From: a bacterium
Lineage (GTDB): Bacteria > ARS69
DNA: 13,598 nt
Assembly: GCA_025774805.1 (NCBI GenBank)
Contig: JALGZR010000105.1
Coordinates: forward strand, 1 to 13,598
Reading direction: 5' to 3'
The translations under genes were made by a program, and so were the position numbers. Below, in pieces: positions 774 through 8,102 of the stretch (position 1 is the first letter of the stretch; every line of letters begins with the position of its first letter). The notes under the pieces are model-generated. The model did not search any database. It saw nothing but the letters and a program-made list of their open reading frames with translations, and had not been told where the DNA came from.

Positions 774-1801
774 GCCTTCTCCGGTCGGGAGGCGCGCCTC
801 CTCGGGGGTTTCGACGGAGCGCCGGACTTCGACCGGGTGCGGGATTTCGACTTCGCCCTCGTGCCGCGCTTCCCGGTTCCCCGGCCCCGGTCTCCGGCGA
901 GCGTTCCCTTCCGCCACTCGAGAGAGCGCAGTCCGGGGCGTCGCCGGGGATTCCGGCCCGACGCGAGCGCGCGAAGGAGATCGAGATTCTTCGCATCCTC
1001 CTTCAGGCCCTCCCCCTTCGGCGTCTCGAGAATCATGGGAACGTCGGCGACCCGGGGATCGCGCAGAAGGCCGGCGAATCCCTTCCGTCCGATCTCCCCC
1101 TCGCCGATGTGCGCGTGTCGGTCGCGGCGACTGGCGAACGGTCGAAGGGAGTCATTCAAGTGGATCGCTCCCAGGCGGTCCAACCCGCACACCGCGTGGA
1201 AACGATCCAACGTCTCCTTTACGGCCTCCGCGGTACGAAGATCGTACCCGGCGGCGAAGACGTGACACGTATCGAGGCAGAAGCCGATGCGGTCCGGGCT
1301 TCGGCTGCCGTCCCGTATGCGTGCGAGGTGCTCGAATCGGTTTCCGAGGTTCGATCCCTGCCCGGCGGTGGTTTCCAGCAGCACCCGGCACCGGAAACCC
1401 CGGCACCGATGGAGGACCTTCCGGAGGCCCTGCGCGATCCGCTTCAGTCCCGCCGCCTCTCCGGATCCCACGTGCGAGCCGGGATGGATCACGAGCCCTT
1501 CCAGACCGAGCGCCTCGCACCGCTCGAGCTCGTCGACGAGCGCATCGATCGATCGCTGCCAGAGCTCCGGATCGGGGGTCCCGAGGTTGATGAGGTACGA
1601 ATCGTGGGCGACGACCCGGTCGATCCCGGTGCGGGACCGCTCCTCGGCGAAGAGCCGGGCGTGCTCCTCCTCCAGCGGCTTCGCCCGCCACTGGCTCGCG
1701 TTCTTCACGAAGATCTGGAGCGCGGTGCACCCGACCGATTCGGCCCGGGCGAACGCGGTGTGAACGCCTCCCGCCACGGACATGTGCGCGCCGATGAGCA
1801 T
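770..1801 (-). CDS. nfo: Endonuclease IV (AP endonuclease) with basic C-terminal tail
   Basis: This base-excision-repair enzyme cuts DNA 5' of abasic sites using three metal ions in a TIM barrel. The 343-residue protein starts at ATG 1801, preceded by GAGGAGGGTCC. An in-frame start at 1849 would add 16 residues outside the family. The family's metal ligands are all recognisable: H66 (AHDSYLINL), H106 (IHPGSH), E143 (LLETTAGQGSNLG), D177 and H180 (CLDTCHVFAAGYD), H214 (IHLNDS), D227 and H229 (DRHAHIGEGEIG) and E259 (ILETPKGE). The catalytic domain ends near residue 283, matching the roughly 280-285 residue length of typical homologues. A further ~60 residues are dense in Arg, Lys and Ser. The gene is read divergently from the small peptide genes and is coupled to the downstream sulfatase-like gene by a four-base overlap; no functional link between those two is evident. 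Confidence 0.95.
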   Translation of the reverse strand: MLIGAHMSVAGGVHTAFARAESVGCTALQIFVKNASQWRAKPLEEEHARLFAEERSRTGIDRVVAHDSYLINLGTPDPELWQRSIDALVDELERCEALGLEGLVIHPGSHVGSGEAAGLKRIAQGLRKVLHRCRGFRCRVLLETTAGQGSNLGNRFEHLARIRDGSRSPDRIGFCLDTCHVFAAGYDLRTAEAVKETLDRFHAVCGLDRLGAIHLNDSLRPFASRRDRHAHIGEGEIGRKGFAGLLRDPRVADVPMILETPKGEGLKEDAKNLDLLRALASGRNPRRRPGLRSLEWRKGTLAGDRGRGTGKRGTRAKSKSRTRSKSGAPSKPPRRRASRPEKA

Positions 1802-1820
1802 GGACCCTCCTCGGTTCGGC

Positions 1821-1849
1821 AGTCTTCCCGACGCGCCCGGCAGCGTCAA
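1821..1849 (-). promoter_or_regulatory. Candidate promoter of nfo
   Basis: On the minus strand TTGACG (1849-1844) is followed by a 17-base spacer and AAGACT (1826-1821). The -35 is a 5/6 match to consensus but the -10 matches only 3/6. Transcription would begin about 13 bases before the nfo ATG. Proposed from spacing alone. Confidence 0.35.
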
Positions 1850-1870
1850 GCCGGGGGGAGCTTCAGGCCA

Positions 1871-1889
1871 GCCCCCCTCTCCGGGGGGC
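1871..1889. other. Perfect 7-bp GC hairpin
   Basis: GCCCCCC at 1871-1877 pairs with GGGGGGC at 1883-1889 around the loop TCTCC. There is no T-tract on either strand, so it is not a typical intrinsic terminator. The same C run could instead pair with the G run at 1853-1858, giving two mutually exclusive structures. Confidence 0.55.
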
Positions 1890-2151
1890 GACGATTTCGC
1901 GAACCCGGGGGGTCACCCCGCAATCGCTTCCCCGGTCGCGAGTTGCGGCGAAGAGCAGAGGTCGCCGTCCCCGGGCGGTGGCGGGAGGCGAAGCGCGGGC
2001 CGACTCGGCGGGCCGCCGGAGCCGTCTCGTTCGGCACGGCCCTTGCGGAACCCCTCCTCTCCGGGAAGAGACCGAGCGTCATCGTCCCCGCGGTTGTCCC
2101 ACCTCGCTTTCGGGACTCGCTCGCCTGGTTCGCGGAGACGATCGGCTCTCT

Positions 2152-2197
2152 CCGGATCCGGTCCGCGCCCACCGGGACGGATCCGGTCTTCCCGGTC
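2152..2197. promoter_or_regulatory. Direct repeats and palindrome upstream of the peptide operon
   Basis: GGATCCGGTC occurs at 2154-2163 and again at 2179-2188, 25 bases apart. The core CCGGTC recurs at 2192-2197. The first copy lies in the perfect palindrome CCGGATCCGG (2152-2161). The cluster ends about 30 bases before the first peptide ATG, a reasonable place for an operator, but short G/C-only repeats can arise by chance at this base composition. Confidence 0.3.
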
Positions 2198-2227
2198 CCG
2201 TCTCACGACTCCCCGGGAGACAACGTC

Positions 2228-2446
2228 ATGAAGACAACAATGGTGGTCCTCTGCGCCGCCACCCTCCTGTCGATTCCGGCCGGTCACGGGGTCGCCGAGC
2301 TGCCTCCCGTTCCGGAGGATGTCGTCGGCGGCGCCTGGTGGATCTGTCCCGCGCTCGGCATCGTCACGGGACTCCAGGTCGCGAGCGGTCAAATCCTGGG
2401 AGCGATCACGACGGTCGTCGCCGCCGCCACCCACGGCTGCATTTGA
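2228..2446 (+). CDS. Small exported two-cysteine peptide 1 (bacteriocin-like precursor)
   Basis: A 72-residue protein of no family I recognise. The start is ATG 2228, with GGGAGA about ten bases upstream. Residues 1-23 look like a Sec signal peptide ending near HGVA. A short Pro/Glu spacer (ELPPVPEDVV) then leads to Gly-Gly, and after it comes a core opening with AWWIC and closing with HGCI. The two core cysteines have 30 residues between them, all small or hydrophobic, including two GxxxG motifs (GIVTG, GQILG). A membrane-active or membrane-inserted peptide, possibly disulfide-closed, is the natural reading. The next gene encodes a protein of the same plan. Class IIb bacteriocins share paired peptides, GxxxG and Gly-Gly leaders, but lack a Sec signal and the leader residues here do not fit their consensus well. 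The gene is likely real; the function is unknown. Confidence 0.7.
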   Translation: MKTTMVVLCAATLLSIPAGHGVAELPPVPEDVVGGAWWICPALGIVTGLQVASGQILGAITTVVAAATHGCI

Positions 2447-2517
2447 CTCCCGGCTCTTCGCCCCGATCCCCTGATCCGCTCCCCGATTCTTCCGTCCCCT
2501 CCCTGAGGAGACCCAAG

Positions 2518-2781
2518 ATGAGATCCCACGTCGCCCTGGCCCTACTCTGTCTTCTCTGCATTCCGGTCGGCGTTTCGTCTTCCGCTGACGTCTCCGCTCC
2601 CGTGCCGCCGGACACGGCCCCGGCCGTCTCGCTCGCGCCCGCCGACGCGACGGGAGGTGGCAACTTCTACTTCTGCGCTGCCGCGCAGACATTCAAGATC
2701 ATCGGCCTGTTCACGGCGAATGCGGGAATGGTCCTGGCCGGAGCGGTTGCCGGCGGCGTCGCCTGCGGAATGGGGTGGTAA
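2518..2781 (+). CDS. Small exported two-cysteine peptide 2 (bacteriocin-like precursor)
   Basis: An 87-residue protein starting at ATG 2518, seven bases after a GAGGAG ribosome site. Residues 1-23 form a signal peptide with a long hydrophobic core, ending near SSSA. A Pro/Ala/Asp spacer of about 25 residues leads to Gly-Gly-Gly, followed by NFYFC and a hydrophobic stretch that ends ACGMGW. The two core cysteines have 29 residues between them, almost the same as in peptide 1. GxxxG motifs occur at GAVAG and GVACG, and one lysine sits in the core. The plan is the same as peptide 1: signal, spacer, Gly-Gly, aromatic residues, Cys, helix-like core, Cys. Residue identity between them is low, so they may be ancient paralogues or functional partners. 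The downstream Yip1 gene starts four bases after this stop, which suggests one operon. Function unknown. Confidence 0.7.
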   Translation: MRSHVALALLCLLCIPVGVSSSADVSAPVPPDTAPAVSLAPADATGGGNFYFCAAAQTFKIIGLFTANAGMVLAGAVAGGVACGMGW

Positions 2782-2785
2782 CGAG

Positions 2786-3553
2786 GTGACGCTGATCTCG
2801 GTGCCGCCCGTCCCCGCAGGCCGGTTCGGGGCCTTCGTTCGGGACATGCGCGCGACGGGTGAGGTACTGATCTCACCCGTCGCCACCTTTCGAAGATTCC
2901 GCGATCGCCGCCCGTTGCTCGGACCGTGGGTGTCGCTGTCGCTGGCCATGCTGATGGTGACGCTCGGCACGGTTTCGATCACACAGCGAGCCGCAACGCA
3001 CCTTCTGCAGGAGACGGCCACCCCGGAGATGGTCGACCGCGTCGAAGCCAGCCTCCATCAGATGAAGGTGTTCTCGGTCGCGATGGCTCCGTTGAGCCTG
3101 GCGGTGCGGTGGGCGGGAATCGCCCTCCTGATGTGGGCCCTCGGCGTCCTGGTCTCTCCGGGCACGTCCTTTCGCACCCTGCTCTCCGTCGTGGCGCTCT
3201 CGGCGGCCCCGGACGTGTTGGGGAGGACCACCGACCTCGCGGTCACGTGGCACCTCGGTCCCGAGTTCCGCCCCGACCTCACACCCTCCATCTCGCCGGC
3301 CACGAGCCTCGCGGCCCTGTTCCCCGCCTCCTTCGGCGGACCGTGGGTCACGGCCCTCCTCGACCAGCTCACGCCGTTCTCGATCTGGACGGGGGCTCTC
3401 TGGATACTGGGTTTGCGCGAGTGGGAGGACATGGGTGGGGTCCGGGCGGCACAGATCGTCCTCCCGCCCTGGATCGCCGTCCGACTGACCGGCGCCGCAC
3501 TCGAAGTCGTTCGCGGATCTCTCGCGTCTCTCGGCGGCTTCCCGCCGGGCTAG
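2786..3553 (+). CDS. Yip1-family integral membrane protein
   Basis: A 255-residue polytopic membrane protein starting at GTG 2786, four bases after the stop of peptide 2. ATG 2846 is a possible later start. The region around residues 26-47 (EVLISPVATFRRFRDRRP followed by LLGP) is the typical entry to a Yip1 domain: an amphipathic segment with a phenylalanine and basic residues, then the first membrane span. Hydrophobic segments lie at about 46-65, 98-124, 130-150, 183-210 and 219-240, matching the five-helix plan. Bacterial Yip1 proteins have no settled function. Its place directly behind two small exported hydrophobic peptides makes an immunity, insertion or export role a fair hypothesis, but nothing in the protein itself shows this. 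The family call rests on topology and the entry motif. Confidence 0.75.
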   Translation: MTLISVPPVPAGRFGAFVRDMRATGEVLISPVATFRRFRDRRPLLGPWVSLSLAMLMVTLGTVSITQRAATHLLQETATPEMVDRVEASLHQMKVFSVAMAPLSLAVRWAGIALLMWALGVLVSPGTSFRTLLSVVALSAAPDVLGRTTDLAVTWHLGPEFRPDLTPSISPATSLAALFPASFGGPWVTALLDQLTPFSIWTGALWILGLREWEDMGGVRAAQIVLPPWIAVRLTGAALEVVRGSLASLGGFPPG

Positions 3554-3699: not shown

Positions 3700-4350
3700 T
3701 CAGGGAGCGACCTGCGGGATGAGCAACTCCTGTCCGACCCGGATGAGGTTCGCGTCGGAGAGGTCGTTGGCCGCGACGATCTGCTCCGGAGTCACGTTGT
3801 ACTCCTGCGCGATCGAGGCGATGGTCTCGCCCGGCCGGACCGTGTGCATTCGGCCGAACGTGAACGCGCTCTCCTCGAGCCGCCGCAACCGCTCCGCCAG
3901 GCGGGAGTTCTCCTTCACGACTTCATCCAGAATGACGTTCATCCGGTCCATCAGCTCGCGCCGATCCTCGTCTCTCCGTTCCAGGAGCTCCTCGGAGCTC
4001 TCCGTGGCCTGGGCTGCCGCCCGGCGCAGCTCGTCCGCCGTGCGCTCGTCGCTCTCGGCGAGCTCGAGCAGACGAGCCGAGACCTCCGCCCCCAGGGTCG
4101 CGATCTGGTCGGACAGATCGTCGACCCGGATGCGAAGGGTCTCGTTCTCGGCGCGGACCGCCTCGAGATCCGATTGAAGGCTCTGGATCCGCTCGTCGTT
4201 CCAGGCACTGTTCCGGGTGACGTCGGCCTCGACCATCTCGACGTGCTTCGTGGTGGCGAGGCAACCTCCGAAGGTCACCAGCGCCGCGAGAGCGACCGTC
4301 CCCAACCGGCCCGCCCGAGTGAACCGTCGGTGAGTGAGACGAGCGATCAC
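3700..4350 (-). CDS. Tol-Pal-linked lipoprotein with coiled coil and LysM domain
   Basis: A 216-residue protein with a GTG start at 4350 that overlaps the pal stop as GTGA, so it is the last gene of the Tol-Pal operon. Residues 1-29 form a lipoprotein signal with lipobox-like FGGC and acylated Cys30. Residues about 36-160 are charged, with heptad-like Leu/Ile spacing, and should form a long coiled coil. Residues about 169-212 form one LysM domain (HTVRPGETIASIAQEY, then PEQIVAAND and LIRVGQELLIP), a peptidoglycan-binding fold. This position is normally taken by CpoB/YbgF, which has a coiled coil and TPR repeats; here the coil is kept and LysM replaces the TPR part. A role in coupling outer-membrane constriction to the cell wall is inferred from position and domains. 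Confidence 0.85.
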   Translation of the reverse strand: MIARLTHRRFTRAGRLGTVALAALVTFGGCLATTKHVEMVEADVTRNSAWNDERIQSLQSDLEAVRAENETLRIRVDDLSDQIATLGAEVSARLLELAESDERTADELRRAAAQATESSEELLERRDEDRRELMDRMNVILDEVVKENSRLAERLRRLEESAFTFGRMHTVRPGETIASIAQEYNVTPEQIVAANDLSDANLIRVGQELLIPQVAP

Positions 4351-4901
4351 GCTCCGGGGGCCTCCACGCGGAACTCCGCCCGGCGGTTCCTGGCCCAGGA
4401 CTCCTCGTCGTGCCCGAAGGCGACCGGACGCTCCTCACCGTACGACACGGTCTGGAACCGGCCCTCCGAGATGCCCAGGGAGACGAGGTAGCGCCTCGTG
4501 GAGAGAGCCCGGTTCTCTCCCAGAGCGAGGTTGTACTCGTTCGTCCCCCGCTCGTCGCAGTGTCCCTCGATGAGCACCTTCCATTTCGGATGATCGCCCA
4601 GGAGAGAGGCGATGCCCTCCAGAATCGGCTTCGCCTCATCCGTGATCCGATACTTGTTGAACTCGAAGTGGATCGGCCGGAACACGTCGGCATACTCCAC
4701 GTTCGGGTCGACGTAGACCGGCTGCTCGTCGCGCTCGGTCGGAACCTCTTCGACGACAGGAGGCTCTGCCGTCGTCTCGACCGGCGGCTCGGCGGCGGGT
4801 TCCGGATCGACGGCGGGCTTCGATCCCCCGCAGCCGGAGACGAGGAGCGCCGCGGCGACGATCGACAGGGCCCCAAGAGCCCTCAGGCGGAGAAATGTCA
4901 T
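4347..4901 (-). CDS. pal: Peptidoglycan-associated lipoprotein Pal
   Basis: A 184-residue outer-membrane lipoprotein that binds peptidoglycan and is recycled by TolB and the Tol motor. The ATG at 4901 follows GAGGAGGTAA. The signal peptide ends in the lipobox VSGC, giving acylated Cys24. A Pro/Glu-rich tether (about 28-66) leads to an OmpA-like domain at about 72-181. Recognisable motifs are IHFEFNKYRI (77-86), IEGHCDERGTNEYNLALGE (111-129), YGEERP (154-159) and NRRAEF (172-177), including the Asp and Arg residues that bind diaminopimelate in this family. It lies 25 bases downstream of tolB, the only real gap between tolR and the end of the operon, and has its own strong ribosome site, which suits the high amounts of Pal usually needed. 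Confidence 0.95.
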   Translation of the reverse strand: MTFLRLRALGALSIVAAALLVSGCGGSKPAVDPEPAAEPPVETTAEPPVVEEVPTERDEQPVYVDPNVEYADVFRPIHFEFNKYRITDEAKPILEGIASLLGDHPKWKVLIEGHCDERGTNEYNLALGENRALSTRRYLVSLGISEGRFQTVSYGEERPVAFGHDEESWARNRRAEFRVEAPGA

Positions 4902-4926
4902 GACTCGTTACCTCCTCGAGGATCGA

Positions 4927-6174
4927 TCAGGGAATGGGGGACCAGGCCGGGGCCGAGAAGCGTCCCGATCCCCGGGATACCCGGAGCGCCCGGCGTTCTC
5001 TCAGGTGGGTGATGTAGAGATCGTTCCTTCCTCCGGCCTTTCGGCTATAGAGGATGCTTCGACCGTCGGGTGACCAGCTCGGGGCTTCGCAACCCCCGCC
5101 CTCGGTCACGGTGACGACCCGGCGGGTCGCCAGATCGACGACCTGGATCTGATAGCCGTCGGGACGGAGGGCGCAGTACGCGATCCGCTCACCGTCCGGT
5201 GACCAGTCGGGAGCGGTATTGTAATTGCCGCGAACCGTGAGTCGCTCCAGAAGTGTTCCATCCTCCCGCATCCGGTAGACCTGGGGACTGCCCGTGCGAT
5301 CGGAGACGAAGGCGATCCACTCCCCGTTCGGGGACCAGACCGGCGAAGTGTCCGTGCCGGGGTGGGTCGTCAGCCGTCGGATCTTACCCGAGACAAGGTC
5401 CTTTGAGTAGATTTCCGGATTGCCCGAGTACGAGAGGGTGAGCGCGAGCCGCCTCCCGTCCCGGTGGAGATCACCGAGCGCGTTGAGCCCCTCGTAGTGG
5501 GCGACCCGTTCCCGAGTGCCGACCGCGAGATCGTGCAGGTACACGTCGGGGAATCCGCTGTCGTACGCCGTGTACAACACGCGTCGCCCTTCCGTCGTCC
5601 AGCGCGGGCTGAGCTCGAGCGCCTCCGAACCCGTGAGCGGACGCAAGCCGTGGCCGTCGACGTCCATGATCCCGATCCGCTTGCCGTCTCCCTCGTCCCA
5701 CTCGCAGAGAATCCGCGTCCGGGCGAGCCCCGGCTCGCCGGTCAGCGCGCGCACGACGTCGTCGGCGAACCGGTGGATCCGACCTCGGAGGCTCTCCTCT
5801 CCCTCGCGCGGGTAGGTCGCCTCGAAGAGGACCGTCCCCGTGCCGACGTCGCGGACGCGTCCGTCCAAGCCCCCCTCCCCGTCCTCCATCTCCACGACGA
5901 CCTCCGCGCCCCGGCGGGTCCAGTCGTCCAGGCTCCGGGGCGGTAACAGCCCGGCCGGCAACGGTTGGAACCAGCCGGAGAGCTCGAGGTCGTAAGCCAC
6001 CACGTGCTCCGGCGGCGAGCCGACCTCTCCCGCCGACAGAGTCGGGTACTTGCCGACGCCGACCGCGATGCGCCGATCCGCCTCCTTCTCGACATCGATG
6101 ACGGGACCCTGGGCGAGAGCCGATCCGGCGATCCCCACCGAGAGCCAGACCGGGAGCGGAGCGCGGAAAATCAC
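4927..6174 (-). CDS. tolB: Tol-Pal system periplasmic protein TolB
   Basis: A 415-residue periplasmic protein that binds Pal and receives the pull of TolA. The frame is open far upstream, but the start is GTG 6174: it overlaps the tolA stop as GTGA, has GGGGGAGAG before it, and begins a clean signal peptide (residues 1-22, ending SALAQ). Residues about 24-148 are the TolB N-terminal domain, with the typical VAYDLELSGWFQPLP at 59-73. Residues about 155-415 form the beta-propeller, with blade motifs VWSPNGEWIAFVSDRTG (279-295), DWSPDGERIAY (323-333) and SWSPDGRSILYS (366-377). The last blade ends at AWSPIP, right at the C-terminus. The length is close to the 430 residues of the E. coli protein. 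Confidence 0.93.
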   Translation of the reverse strand: MIFRAPLPVWLSVGIAGSALAQGPVIDVEKEADRRIAVGVGKYPTLSAGEVGSPPEHVVAYDLELSGWFQPLPAGLLPPRSLDDWTRRGAEVVVEMEDGEGGLDGRVRDVGTGTVLFEATYPREGEESLRGRIHRFADDVVRALTGEPGLARTRILCEWDEGDGKRIGIMDVDGHGLRPLTGSEALELSPRWTTEGRRVLYTAYDSGFPDVYLHDLAVGTRERVAHYEGLNALGDLHRDGRRLALTLSYSGNPEIYSKDLVSGKIRRLTTHPGTDTSPVWSPNGEWIAFVSDRTGSPQVYRMREDGTLLERLTVRGNYNTAPDWSPDGERIAYCALRPDGYQIQVVDLATRRVVTVTEGGGCEAPSWSPDGRSILYSRKAGGRNDLYITHLRERRALRVSRGSGRFSAPAWSPIP

Positions 6175-6941
6175 CGCTCTCCCCCGGCGACGGTGAAACG
6201 GACGCCCACGTCCAGGTGGGACTCCTCGTAGGCGTCCGGCAGGACCGGGAAGGGACGGGCCTGCTGCACGGCCCGGCGGGCACTCGCGTCCAGACCGGGC
6301 GTGCCCGACGCGCCCTCGACGACGATGTCGGTGACGCGACCGTCCCGGTGGATTCGGAACCGGACGAGGATCCAGTTCCGTCCGCCGGCCACCATGCGAT
6401 CGGCGGGCGGATCCCAGACGTCGGTGATCCGATTGCGGAGCACGTTGAGATACCAGGCGAAGGGAAAGTCGGCGGCCTCGATCTCGGTCGAGGAGTCCGG
6501 GGACTCGGGCGGCTCCTCGGGCGCGACCGCGACGCTCTCCTCGGGAGCCGCCGTCTCCTGCAGACGGGCCTTCAGCCGATCCGCGAGCGACGGCTCCGAC
6601 GAATCCCGCCGGGGAGCCATTCGGCGATACTCGCGCGGCGGGCGGCTCTCTCGGGGTTGAACGGGCGTCGGCTCGGGACGCTCCGGGGGGGCCTCGTCGG
6701 GCTCCTCGACGACCGGCTCTTCGGATTCGAGCCTCTCCGGAACGGGAGGCTCGTGGACCTCGGGTCGAGGGGGCTCGGGGCGGGCCGACCTCGGAGCGGG
6801 CGGCTCGGGCAGACTTCGGACGAGCTCCACGGCGATCTGCGGCTCGACGTCCCACGACCGGGCCCGGGACCCCGGCCCGAGCAGAAGGAGCGCGAAGCCG
6901 ATCGCGTGGAGCGCGGTCGAGAGGGCGAGACCCCGGTTCAA
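6171..6941 (-). CDS. tolA: TolA/TonB-type energy transducer of the Tol-Pal system
   Basis: A 256-residue inner-membrane protein with one N-terminal span (about residues 5-22). A long linker (about 45-155) is very rich in Pro and Glu (EPPAP, RPEPPRPEVHEPPVPER). A TonB-like C-terminal domain follows (about 158-252: FPFAWYLNVLRNRITDVWDP, VRFRIHRDGRVTDI, then the AVQQARPFPVLP block). The ATG at 6941 overlaps the tolR stop as ATGA, and the stop overlaps tolB. By position it is TolA, which transmits TolQR motor force to TolB and Pal. The E. coli TolA linker is a long Ala-rich helix; the Pro-rich linker and TonB-type end here are more like TonB, so automated pipelines may label it TonB. The operon context favours the Tol role. 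Confidence 0.88.
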   Translation of the reverse strand: MNRGLALSTALHAIGFALLLLGPGSRARSWDVEPQIAVELVRSLPEPPAPRSARPEPPRPEVHEPPVPERLESEEPVVEEPDEAPPERPEPTPVQPRESRPPREYRRMAPRRDSSEPSLADRLKARLQETAAPEESVAVAPEEPPESPDSSTEIEAADFPFAWYLNVLRNRITDVWDPPADRMVAGGRNWILVRFRIHRDGRVTDIVVEGASGTPGLDASARRAVQQARPFPVLPDAYEESHLDVGVRFTVAGGER

Positions 6942-7354
6942 GGCCGCTCGTCCCGCGGCCTCGTCGCGAGGCTGACCCGCGTGAGCCCGGCCAAGCGGGC
7001 CCGGTCCAGAACGTCCAGGACGGCCCCGTACCCGAGGCGGTGATCCCCCTCCAACAGCACGGGAAGCTCGGGATCTCGGCGCGCCCGATTCCGGAGCTCG
7101 TCGTCCAGGCGTTGGGGGAGGATCGGACGCCCGTCCAGGAAGACCTCACCCTCGGGGCCCAGACTGATCCGGAGCCCCCGTTCCGGCTCCGGGGCCGCGG
7201 TGGTCGCCTCGGGAAGGCGCAATTCGATCCCCTGATTCAGGATCGGGGCCACCAGGATGAAGATGATGAGGAGCATCATGGTCACGTCGACGAGCGACGT
7301 GATGTTCACGGTGGTGTCGGGTCCCCGGGTCCTCCGGCGCGGCCTCGCTCTCAT
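6938..7354 (-). CDS. tolR: Tol-Pal system protein TolR (ExbD family)
   Basis: A 138-residue ExbD/TolR protein that works with TolQ as the proton-driven stator. The ATG at 7354 is preceded by GAGGGAGG, ten bases after the tolQ stop. An upstream in-frame start at 7438 would overlap tolQ and add a basic tail not typical of the family. After a short Arg-rich cytoplasmic end comes a single span (about 20-37) with the motif VNITSLVDVTMMLLIIFILV. Asp23 corresponds to the essential proton-carrying Asp23 of E. coli TolR. The periplasmic domain (about 45-135) ends with LGYGAVLDVLDRARLAGLTRVSL-type residues typical of ExbD. Confidence 0.95.
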   Translation of the reverse strand: MRARPRRRTRGPDTTVNITSLVDVTMMLLIIFILVAPILNQGIELRLPEATTAAPEPERGLRISLGPEGEVFLDGRPILPQRLDDELRNRARRDPELPVLLEGDHRLGYGAVLDVLDRARLAGLTRVSLATRPRDERP

Positions 7355-7364
7355 GGGACCTCCC

Positions 7365-8102
7365 TCAGTCTTGGCGGCGGGCGAAGACCGGCGAGGACGT
7401 CTCTCCCTCTCCTTCCGGAGTCGGAAGCGGGCGGGCATCCTCTTCGGAGTGATCGATCACGCGGAGGAACTCCCAGGCGAATCGATCCAGGATCATCTCG
7501 ATCCGACGCACCCTTCCGCTCAACAGGTTGTAGGAAATGACCGCGGGGATCGCGACGGCCAGGCCGGCCACGGTCGTCACGAGGGCTTCGGCCACCCCCG
7601 GGGCCACGGCGGCGATTCCGGCGCTTCCCTCCGCGCTGATGCCGCGGAAGGCGTTCATGATTCCCCACACCGTCCCGAACAGCCCGATGAACGGACACGC
7701 GCTCGCCGCGATGGCGAGGATGAGGTGTCCCCTCTCGAGCCGGCTCAACTCCTGAGCGACTTCGATCTCGAGCGCCGCCTCGATGCGGTTGCGCGCCTCG
7801 CCGGAGAGAGGCAGAGGGGCTCCGAGCTTTCGACGCTGGGCGCGGAACTCGCGGAGCCCTCCCTCGTAGACGGTTCCCAGCGGGCCCGCGACGGGGGTCC
7901 CGCGGTTCGTGCGCAGCCAGTCGGTACTGGCGGCGCGGAACTGATTCAGGAAGGCCTCGCAGGAGCGCTCCGCGCGACGGAGCATCCCGACCTTGGTCAG
8001 GATGACGGCCCACGTGTAAATGGAGAAGACGAGCAGCCCCGCGAGAATCGTCTGACCGACCGGACCGGACCGGAGGAGCGTCGCCAAGAATGGATGATCC
8101 AA
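7365..8102 (-). CDS. tolQ: Tol-Pal system protein TolQ (MotA/ExbB family)
   Basis: A 245-residue inner-membrane motor protein. The frame is open well upstream through the pduO region, but family similarity begins at the TTG at 8102 (DHPFLATLLRSGPVGQTIL), which follows a GGCAGGGGGCAGGG stretch. No ATG fits, so a TTG start is preferred. Three spans are visible: about 17-36, 125-149 and 167-191. The conserved MotA/TolQ/ExbB motifs are present, namely PFIGLFGTVWGIMNAF (137-152) at the second helix and GVAEALVTTVAGLAVAIPAV (169-188) at the third, whose Thr residues line the proton path. The charged C-terminal tail (about 217-245) is longer than the core needs. It is the first gene of the tol operon and has a candidate promoter about 80-110 bases upstream. 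Confidence 0.93.
   Translation of the reverse strand: MDHPFLATLLRSGPVGQTILAGLLVFSIYTWAVILTKVGMLRRAERSCEAFLNQFRAASTDWLRTNRGTPVAGPLGTVYEGGLREFRAQRRKLGAPLPLSGEARNRIEAALEIEVAQELSRLERGHLILAIAASACPFIGLFGTVWGIMNAFRGISAEGSAGIAAVAPGVAEALVTTVAGLAVAIPAVISYNLLSGRVRRIEMILDRFAWEFLRVIDHSEEDARPLPTPEGEGETSSPVFARRQD

Follow-up and report, generated by a model that had tools for sequence, protein, structure and literature searches.

Two-peptide bacteriocins of class IIb, such as Abp118 α/β and thermophilin 13, are encoded by two adjacent small genes and carry a double-glycine (GG) leader alone, which is cut on the cytoplasmic side by a transporter that joins a C39 peptidase to an ATP-binding cassette (ABC). Sec-dependent class II bacteriocins are exported by a signal peptide, with no GG leader and no C39 step, and tools that mine genomes for class II bacteriocins handle Sec and GG leaders as alternative types (PMC12648078). 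FapD, from the Pseudomonas Fap amyloid system, is a C39 peptidase that is exported by Sec and active in the periplasm without being part of an ABC transporter (PMC5557850), and the Bacillus SDP toxin is an exported 42-residue peptide with one disulfide, against which the producer is protected by a transporter containing the Yip1-family protein YknW (PMC4887032). Here we analyze a bacterial window, that is, the whole 13,598-nucleotide stretch of contig JALGZR010000105.1 (assembly GCA_025774805.1, lineage ARS69), in which two adjacent small genes, A and B, encode peptides with a Sec-type signal ahead of a GG site and are followed by the gene of a YIP1-domain membrane protein. We think it rather likely that A and B encode bipartite-leader precursors of a bacteriocin-like two-peptide toxin, which would be exported by Sec, cut by an exported C39 peptidase and closed by a disulfide, with the YIP1 protein serving in protection or export.

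Both genes lie on the plus strand: A (2228..2446; ATG at 2228, stop at 2444-2446) encodes 72 amino acids and B (2518..2781; ATG at 2518, stop at 2779-2781; GAGGAG Shine-Dalgarno sequence) encodes 87. As a preliminary description of the window had proposed, the two follow one plan: a basic N-terminus and hydrophobic stretch, Gly-Gly, aromatic residues, a cysteine, and a hydrophobic, Gly/Ala-rich core ending in a second cysteine. In A, the Sec signal (residues ~1-23; signal peptides were assigned via simple hydrophobicity rules) precedes the spacer ELPPVPEDVVGG and a predicted mature core, AWWIC-X30-C-I, of 37 residues. B combines a signal of the same extent (~1-23) with a Pro/Ala spacer, GG(G) and a predicted mature core, NFYFC-X29-C-GMGW, of 39 residues, and its GGG, a minor correction to that description, would permit cleavage behind either GG. 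The cysteine spacings of 30 and 29 residues and the two GxxxG motifs named for each core (GIVTG and GQILG in A, GAVAG and GVACG in B) are present as claimed, both cores are hydrophobic and near-neutral, and a profile comparison relates A to B (hhalign, 91%). The structural model of B consists of two helices (residues 48-65 and 69-84; predicted local-distance difference test score of ~80 for the core) and places Cys53 and Cys83 on opposite arms of a helical hairpin, close to its open end. A strict filter for this blueprint (signal-like start, G[GA], at most 16 residues, Cys, 22-50 residues, a second Cys close to the C terminus and a hydrophobic core) selected exactly two open reading frames in the window, A and B, and returned no match in control DNA (94 loci, 297 kb) or in first-order Markov sequence (816 kb); the blueprint thus exceeds chance.

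The window's phylum is represented by five genomes, G000 (the window's own) to G004. A, B and YIP1 recur in G004 in the window order, with flanks identical in kind, and in G001 at a different location, adjoining an exonuclease-type locus. The GG and both cysteines are invariant in the peptides of all three genomes, such that the homologues for which the preliminary description had advised a search do exist. Divergence from G004 is greatest at third codon positions in both genes, and B keeps 37 identical residues, where equal numbers of random substitutions leave 23.5 on average and at most 33 (2000 trials); for A the comparison is weaker (25 identical residues vs a random mean of 16.6 and maximum of 29). 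These codon patterns support coding selection on the pair, if less clearly for A. A scan of genome contigs matched only contig JALGZO010000157.1 of G004 ('bacterium isolate M3-22_Bin_282'), and a peptide-B profile run against 386 diverse genomes retrieved its own family, with the rest at chance level. The preliminary description had not recognized the family, and indeed Pfam, NCBIfam, PADLOC and PDB sequences yielded no match; tblastn against plasmids likewise gave none.

In G001, the gene order ties the peptides to a peptidase: a thioredoxin-like CxxC protein, a stand-alone C39 (double-glycine) peptidase with an N-terminal hydrophobic anchor of the exported type, A, B and YIP1 are encoded in succession by genes that overlap or abut, and we assign them to one operon because of this overlap. 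The corresponding thioredoxin-C39 pair of the window genome is carried by another contig, C244, and its peptidase, the sole C39 found in G000, has a Peptidase C39 domain (PF03412, E = 4.5e-18) and no ABC domain. Across six stand-alone C39 sequences, the catalytic Cys, His and Asp and the oxyanion Gln are invariant and follow an N-terminal hydrophobic anchor. In G002, neither C39 nor peptides were detected. Two further loci may be recorded here: directly behind the thioredoxin-C39 pair of G000, where peptides sit elsewhere, lies a gene for a cohesin-like exported protein (L064, contig C244, 9667-10440, minus strand), and contig C196 of G003 (L073, ~1307-1876, plus strand) encodes an exported C39 with catalytic residues, for which no peptide partner was detected.

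We searched for stand-alone C39s in the 386 diverse genomes and then in the phyla of two of the matches, which brought many more loci to light. Small proteins with a Sec signal, a GG or GA, at least two cysteines and a Gly/Ala-rich core are encoded beside these enzymes in twos or threes, and this linkage is seen in three phyla. The strict filter identified at least one blueprint peptide in 22 of 24 stand-alone C39 loci and at least two in 10 of the 24 (33 peptides altogether), a fraction that is descriptive, as loci with a recognizable stand-alone C39 frame were picked after a first look at the neighborhoods (which leaves the control zero unaffected), and that reflects fewer independent cases, as many of the loci come from one genus (19 non-window peptides remain after 60% clustering). 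Loci around ABC-transporter-type C39s, taken as negative neighbors, contained no blueprint peptides. Where two-Cys peptides occur, the C39 gene is in nearly every locus immediately preceded and abutted by a gene for a CxxC thioredoxin-like protein. Genes for YIP1 proteins, for ABC permeases and ATPases, or for both are again present downstream, and YIP1 recurs beside the module in several lineages. The G368 variant has GG-WWNW peptides and lacks both the two-Cys plan and a thioredoxin neighbor, which fits a thioredoxin-like protein serving disulfides. Finally, when aligned at the GG, the leaders of 25 non-redundant module peptides have hydrophobic residues peaking at -4, -7 and -12, the canonical hydrophobic positions of C39-cleaved GG leaders (PMC10885120); 38 of these 75 positions are hydrophobic, against a shuffled mean of 21, and none of 20000 shuffles reached that number. 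An initial view that confined the pair to one small phylum was abandoned once the C39-linked loci emerged in other phyla. Two of the loci show arrangements of their own: L112 (G368:C2:281000-294000; 6716-7474, minus strand) has two exported small GG-WWNW proteins encoded immediately ahead of genes for an exported stand-alone C39 and an ABC ATPase-like protein, and L111 (G176:C131; 4163-5250, minus strand) has three consecutive exported two-Cys hydrophobic peptides behind thioredoxin, C39 and YIP1 genes, with GG in the first only.

In the mechanism that we propose, the Sec signal would take each precursor over the inner membrane, and the exported, membrane-anchored stand-alone C39 (C244 in G000) would recognize the remaining GG-type leader and cut after Gly-Gly. 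The thioredoxin-like CxxC protein whose gene accompanies that of the C39 would help to form the Cys-Cys bond by which each core is closed into a helical hairpin, and the mature GxxxG-bearing peptides, of 37 and 39 residues, would pair in the target membrane and permeabilize it. The YIP1 membrane protein would shield the producer or assist export, and the ABC proteins are likewise proposed for self-protection. The sequences themselves show the genes, their conservation, their linkage in a module, the C39 catalytic residues and the leader pattern, and the maturation route is well supported; we infer actual cleavage, disulfide formation, pairing, killing and immunity.

The preliminary description had likened the pair to class IIb bacteriocins, and much of that likeness holds: a pair of neighboring small genes for precursors, which G004 and G001 retain, a GG site, similar core lengths and GxxxG motifs, to which the C39 gene in the G001 operon and beside such peptides elsewhere, together with a C39-type leader spacing (across the 25 module peptides, not in the window phylum alone), can now be added. 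It had also considered a cysteine pair out of place in class IIb, which is wrong. Abp118 β has a C-X30-C core resembling those of A and B (a sequence confirmed in plasmid records that carry the annotation 'Blp family class II bacteriocin'), two Cys are present in ThmA of thermophilin 13, and thiol-disulfide oxidoreductases occur in class II bacteriocin loci, as in the thermophilin 13 cluster, which like our module combines one with a membrane immunity candidate. Its remark that a Sec signal is foreign to the class stands, however: in A and B, a Sec-type signal precedes the GG in place of an N-terminal GG leader with C39-ABC export, and the module C39 is exported and stand-alone (as in G000) rather than ABC-fused. 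We take the module to work like a class IIb system, but we do not file it under class IIb because no homology to that class was detected (hhalign probability of 0.3% against the Abp118 pair). What sets the module apart is the bipartite leader and the exported stand-alone C39; cysteine pairs in class IIb were known already.

The YIP1 gene (2786..3553, plus strand) starts 4 nt past the stop of B, and its multi-pass product matches PF04893 (E = 4.2e-12; 46.7 bits, above the gathering score of 28.6) and falls below the curated cut-off of NCBIfam YknW_fam (45.5 vs 110 bits). SdpC with YknWXYZ resembles A/B-YIP1 in pairing an exported disulfide peptide with a Yip1-family protein, but SDP is a single peptide, and no YknXYZ genes lie beside the YIP1 gene in the window. 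To our knowledge, the SDP toxin involves no C39 or GG step. Because Yip1 proteins are found in gene clusters for circular and for leaderless bacteriocins as well as in the SDP-protecting transporter, we consider the YIP1 protein a self-protection candidate and, more broadly, a candidate immunity or export partner. As for the peptidase, FapD resembles the predicted exported C39 of the module in being Sec-exported, periplasmic and free of an ABC transporter, but it acts on amyloid-system proteins, which lack canonical C39 sites, and it has no two-Cys peptide pair.

We found no description of a module of Sec and GG leaders with an exported C39 in the literature of one open-access library, and we are evenly divided on whether these loci form a separate, previously undescribed multi-phylum class of two-peptide toxins, with Sec and double-glycine leaders and thioredoxin-C39 maturation at the outer face of the inner membrane, independent of C39-ABC export. 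Such a class would combine two leader logics held as alternatives, shift double-glycine cleavage to that outer face and couple it to disulfide formation. Programs that mine for class II bacteriocins by one leader type, Sec or GG, may overlook precursors of this kind, and the phyla in which the module is found are little cultured. Orphan exported C39 peptidases would gain a likely function and clear substrates, and the targets of periplasmic C39s would become directly testable.

Several results weigh against a toxin matured in this way. In the window phylum alone, 7 of 18 leader positions at -4/-7/-12 are hydrophobic, a number reached by 1358 of 20000 shuffles and hence not significant; the C39 of G000 is unlinked to A and B; G003 yielded a C39 without peptides, and G004 the peptides without a C39 (in an assembly 92% complete, of 790 contigs). 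The thioredoxin fold of the G000 partner is indicated by a weak Pfam match and a profile common with CxxC proteins of other lineages (its AlphaFold2 model is of low confidence, and a fold search on it was uninformative), class IIb homology is lacking as noted above, and the cores are not cationic, unlike those of many bacteriocins. The C39 unlinked in G000 and not found in G004 would suit ordinary small exported membrane-associated proteins with an incidental GG and a coincidental C39 neighborhood in G001, yet this is quite improbable in view of the linkage of peptides and stand-alone C39s in three phyla, the empty control DNA and the agreement of the leader positions with C39 recognition. A shade less probable still is a classical class IIb system served by a peptidase-containing ABC transporter, in which what looks like a Sec signal would be part of an unusual, long leader: the GG leader, two peptides, GxxxG motifs, downstream membrane gene and the similar C-X30-C core of Abp118 β fit it, but homologues keep a signal-peptide-like N-terminus, the only C39 found in G000 stands alone without an ABC domain, and ABC-transporter-type C39 loci yielded no such peptides.

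A stronger contender, although we regard it as unlikely, shares the same maturation and assigns the products a non-killing role, as secreted signaling peptides or as envelope subunits comparable to those of Fap, where periplasmic FapD licenses the secretion of structural proteins. FapD is the closest characterized exported C39 and part of an amyloid system, and its NCBIfam model C39_FapD is weakly matched by the G000 peptidase (24.7 bits, short of the curated cut-off of 330). The cores, however, are Gly/Ala-rich hydrophobic two-Cys hairpins without amyloid repeats, no FapF-like pore was seen adjoining the genes, and the rapid divergence, the variation in peptide number (2-3) and the membrane and ABC partners better match conflict systems.

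Upstream of A, the intergenic region at 1850..2227 (plus strand) separates it from a divergent nfo-like (endonuclease IV-like) gene and presumably holds the promoter of the A-B-YIP1 unit. Downstream of the YIP1 gene, a Tol-Pal type cluster occupies 3700-7438 on the minus strand and comprises genes for a LysM-bearing coiled-coil protein (3700-4350) and for Pal-like (4347-4901), TolB-like, TolA/TonB-like and ExbD-like proteins. The long open frames on the plus strand at 9-1265 run against the endonuclease IV-like gene and probably represent high-GC shadow frames.
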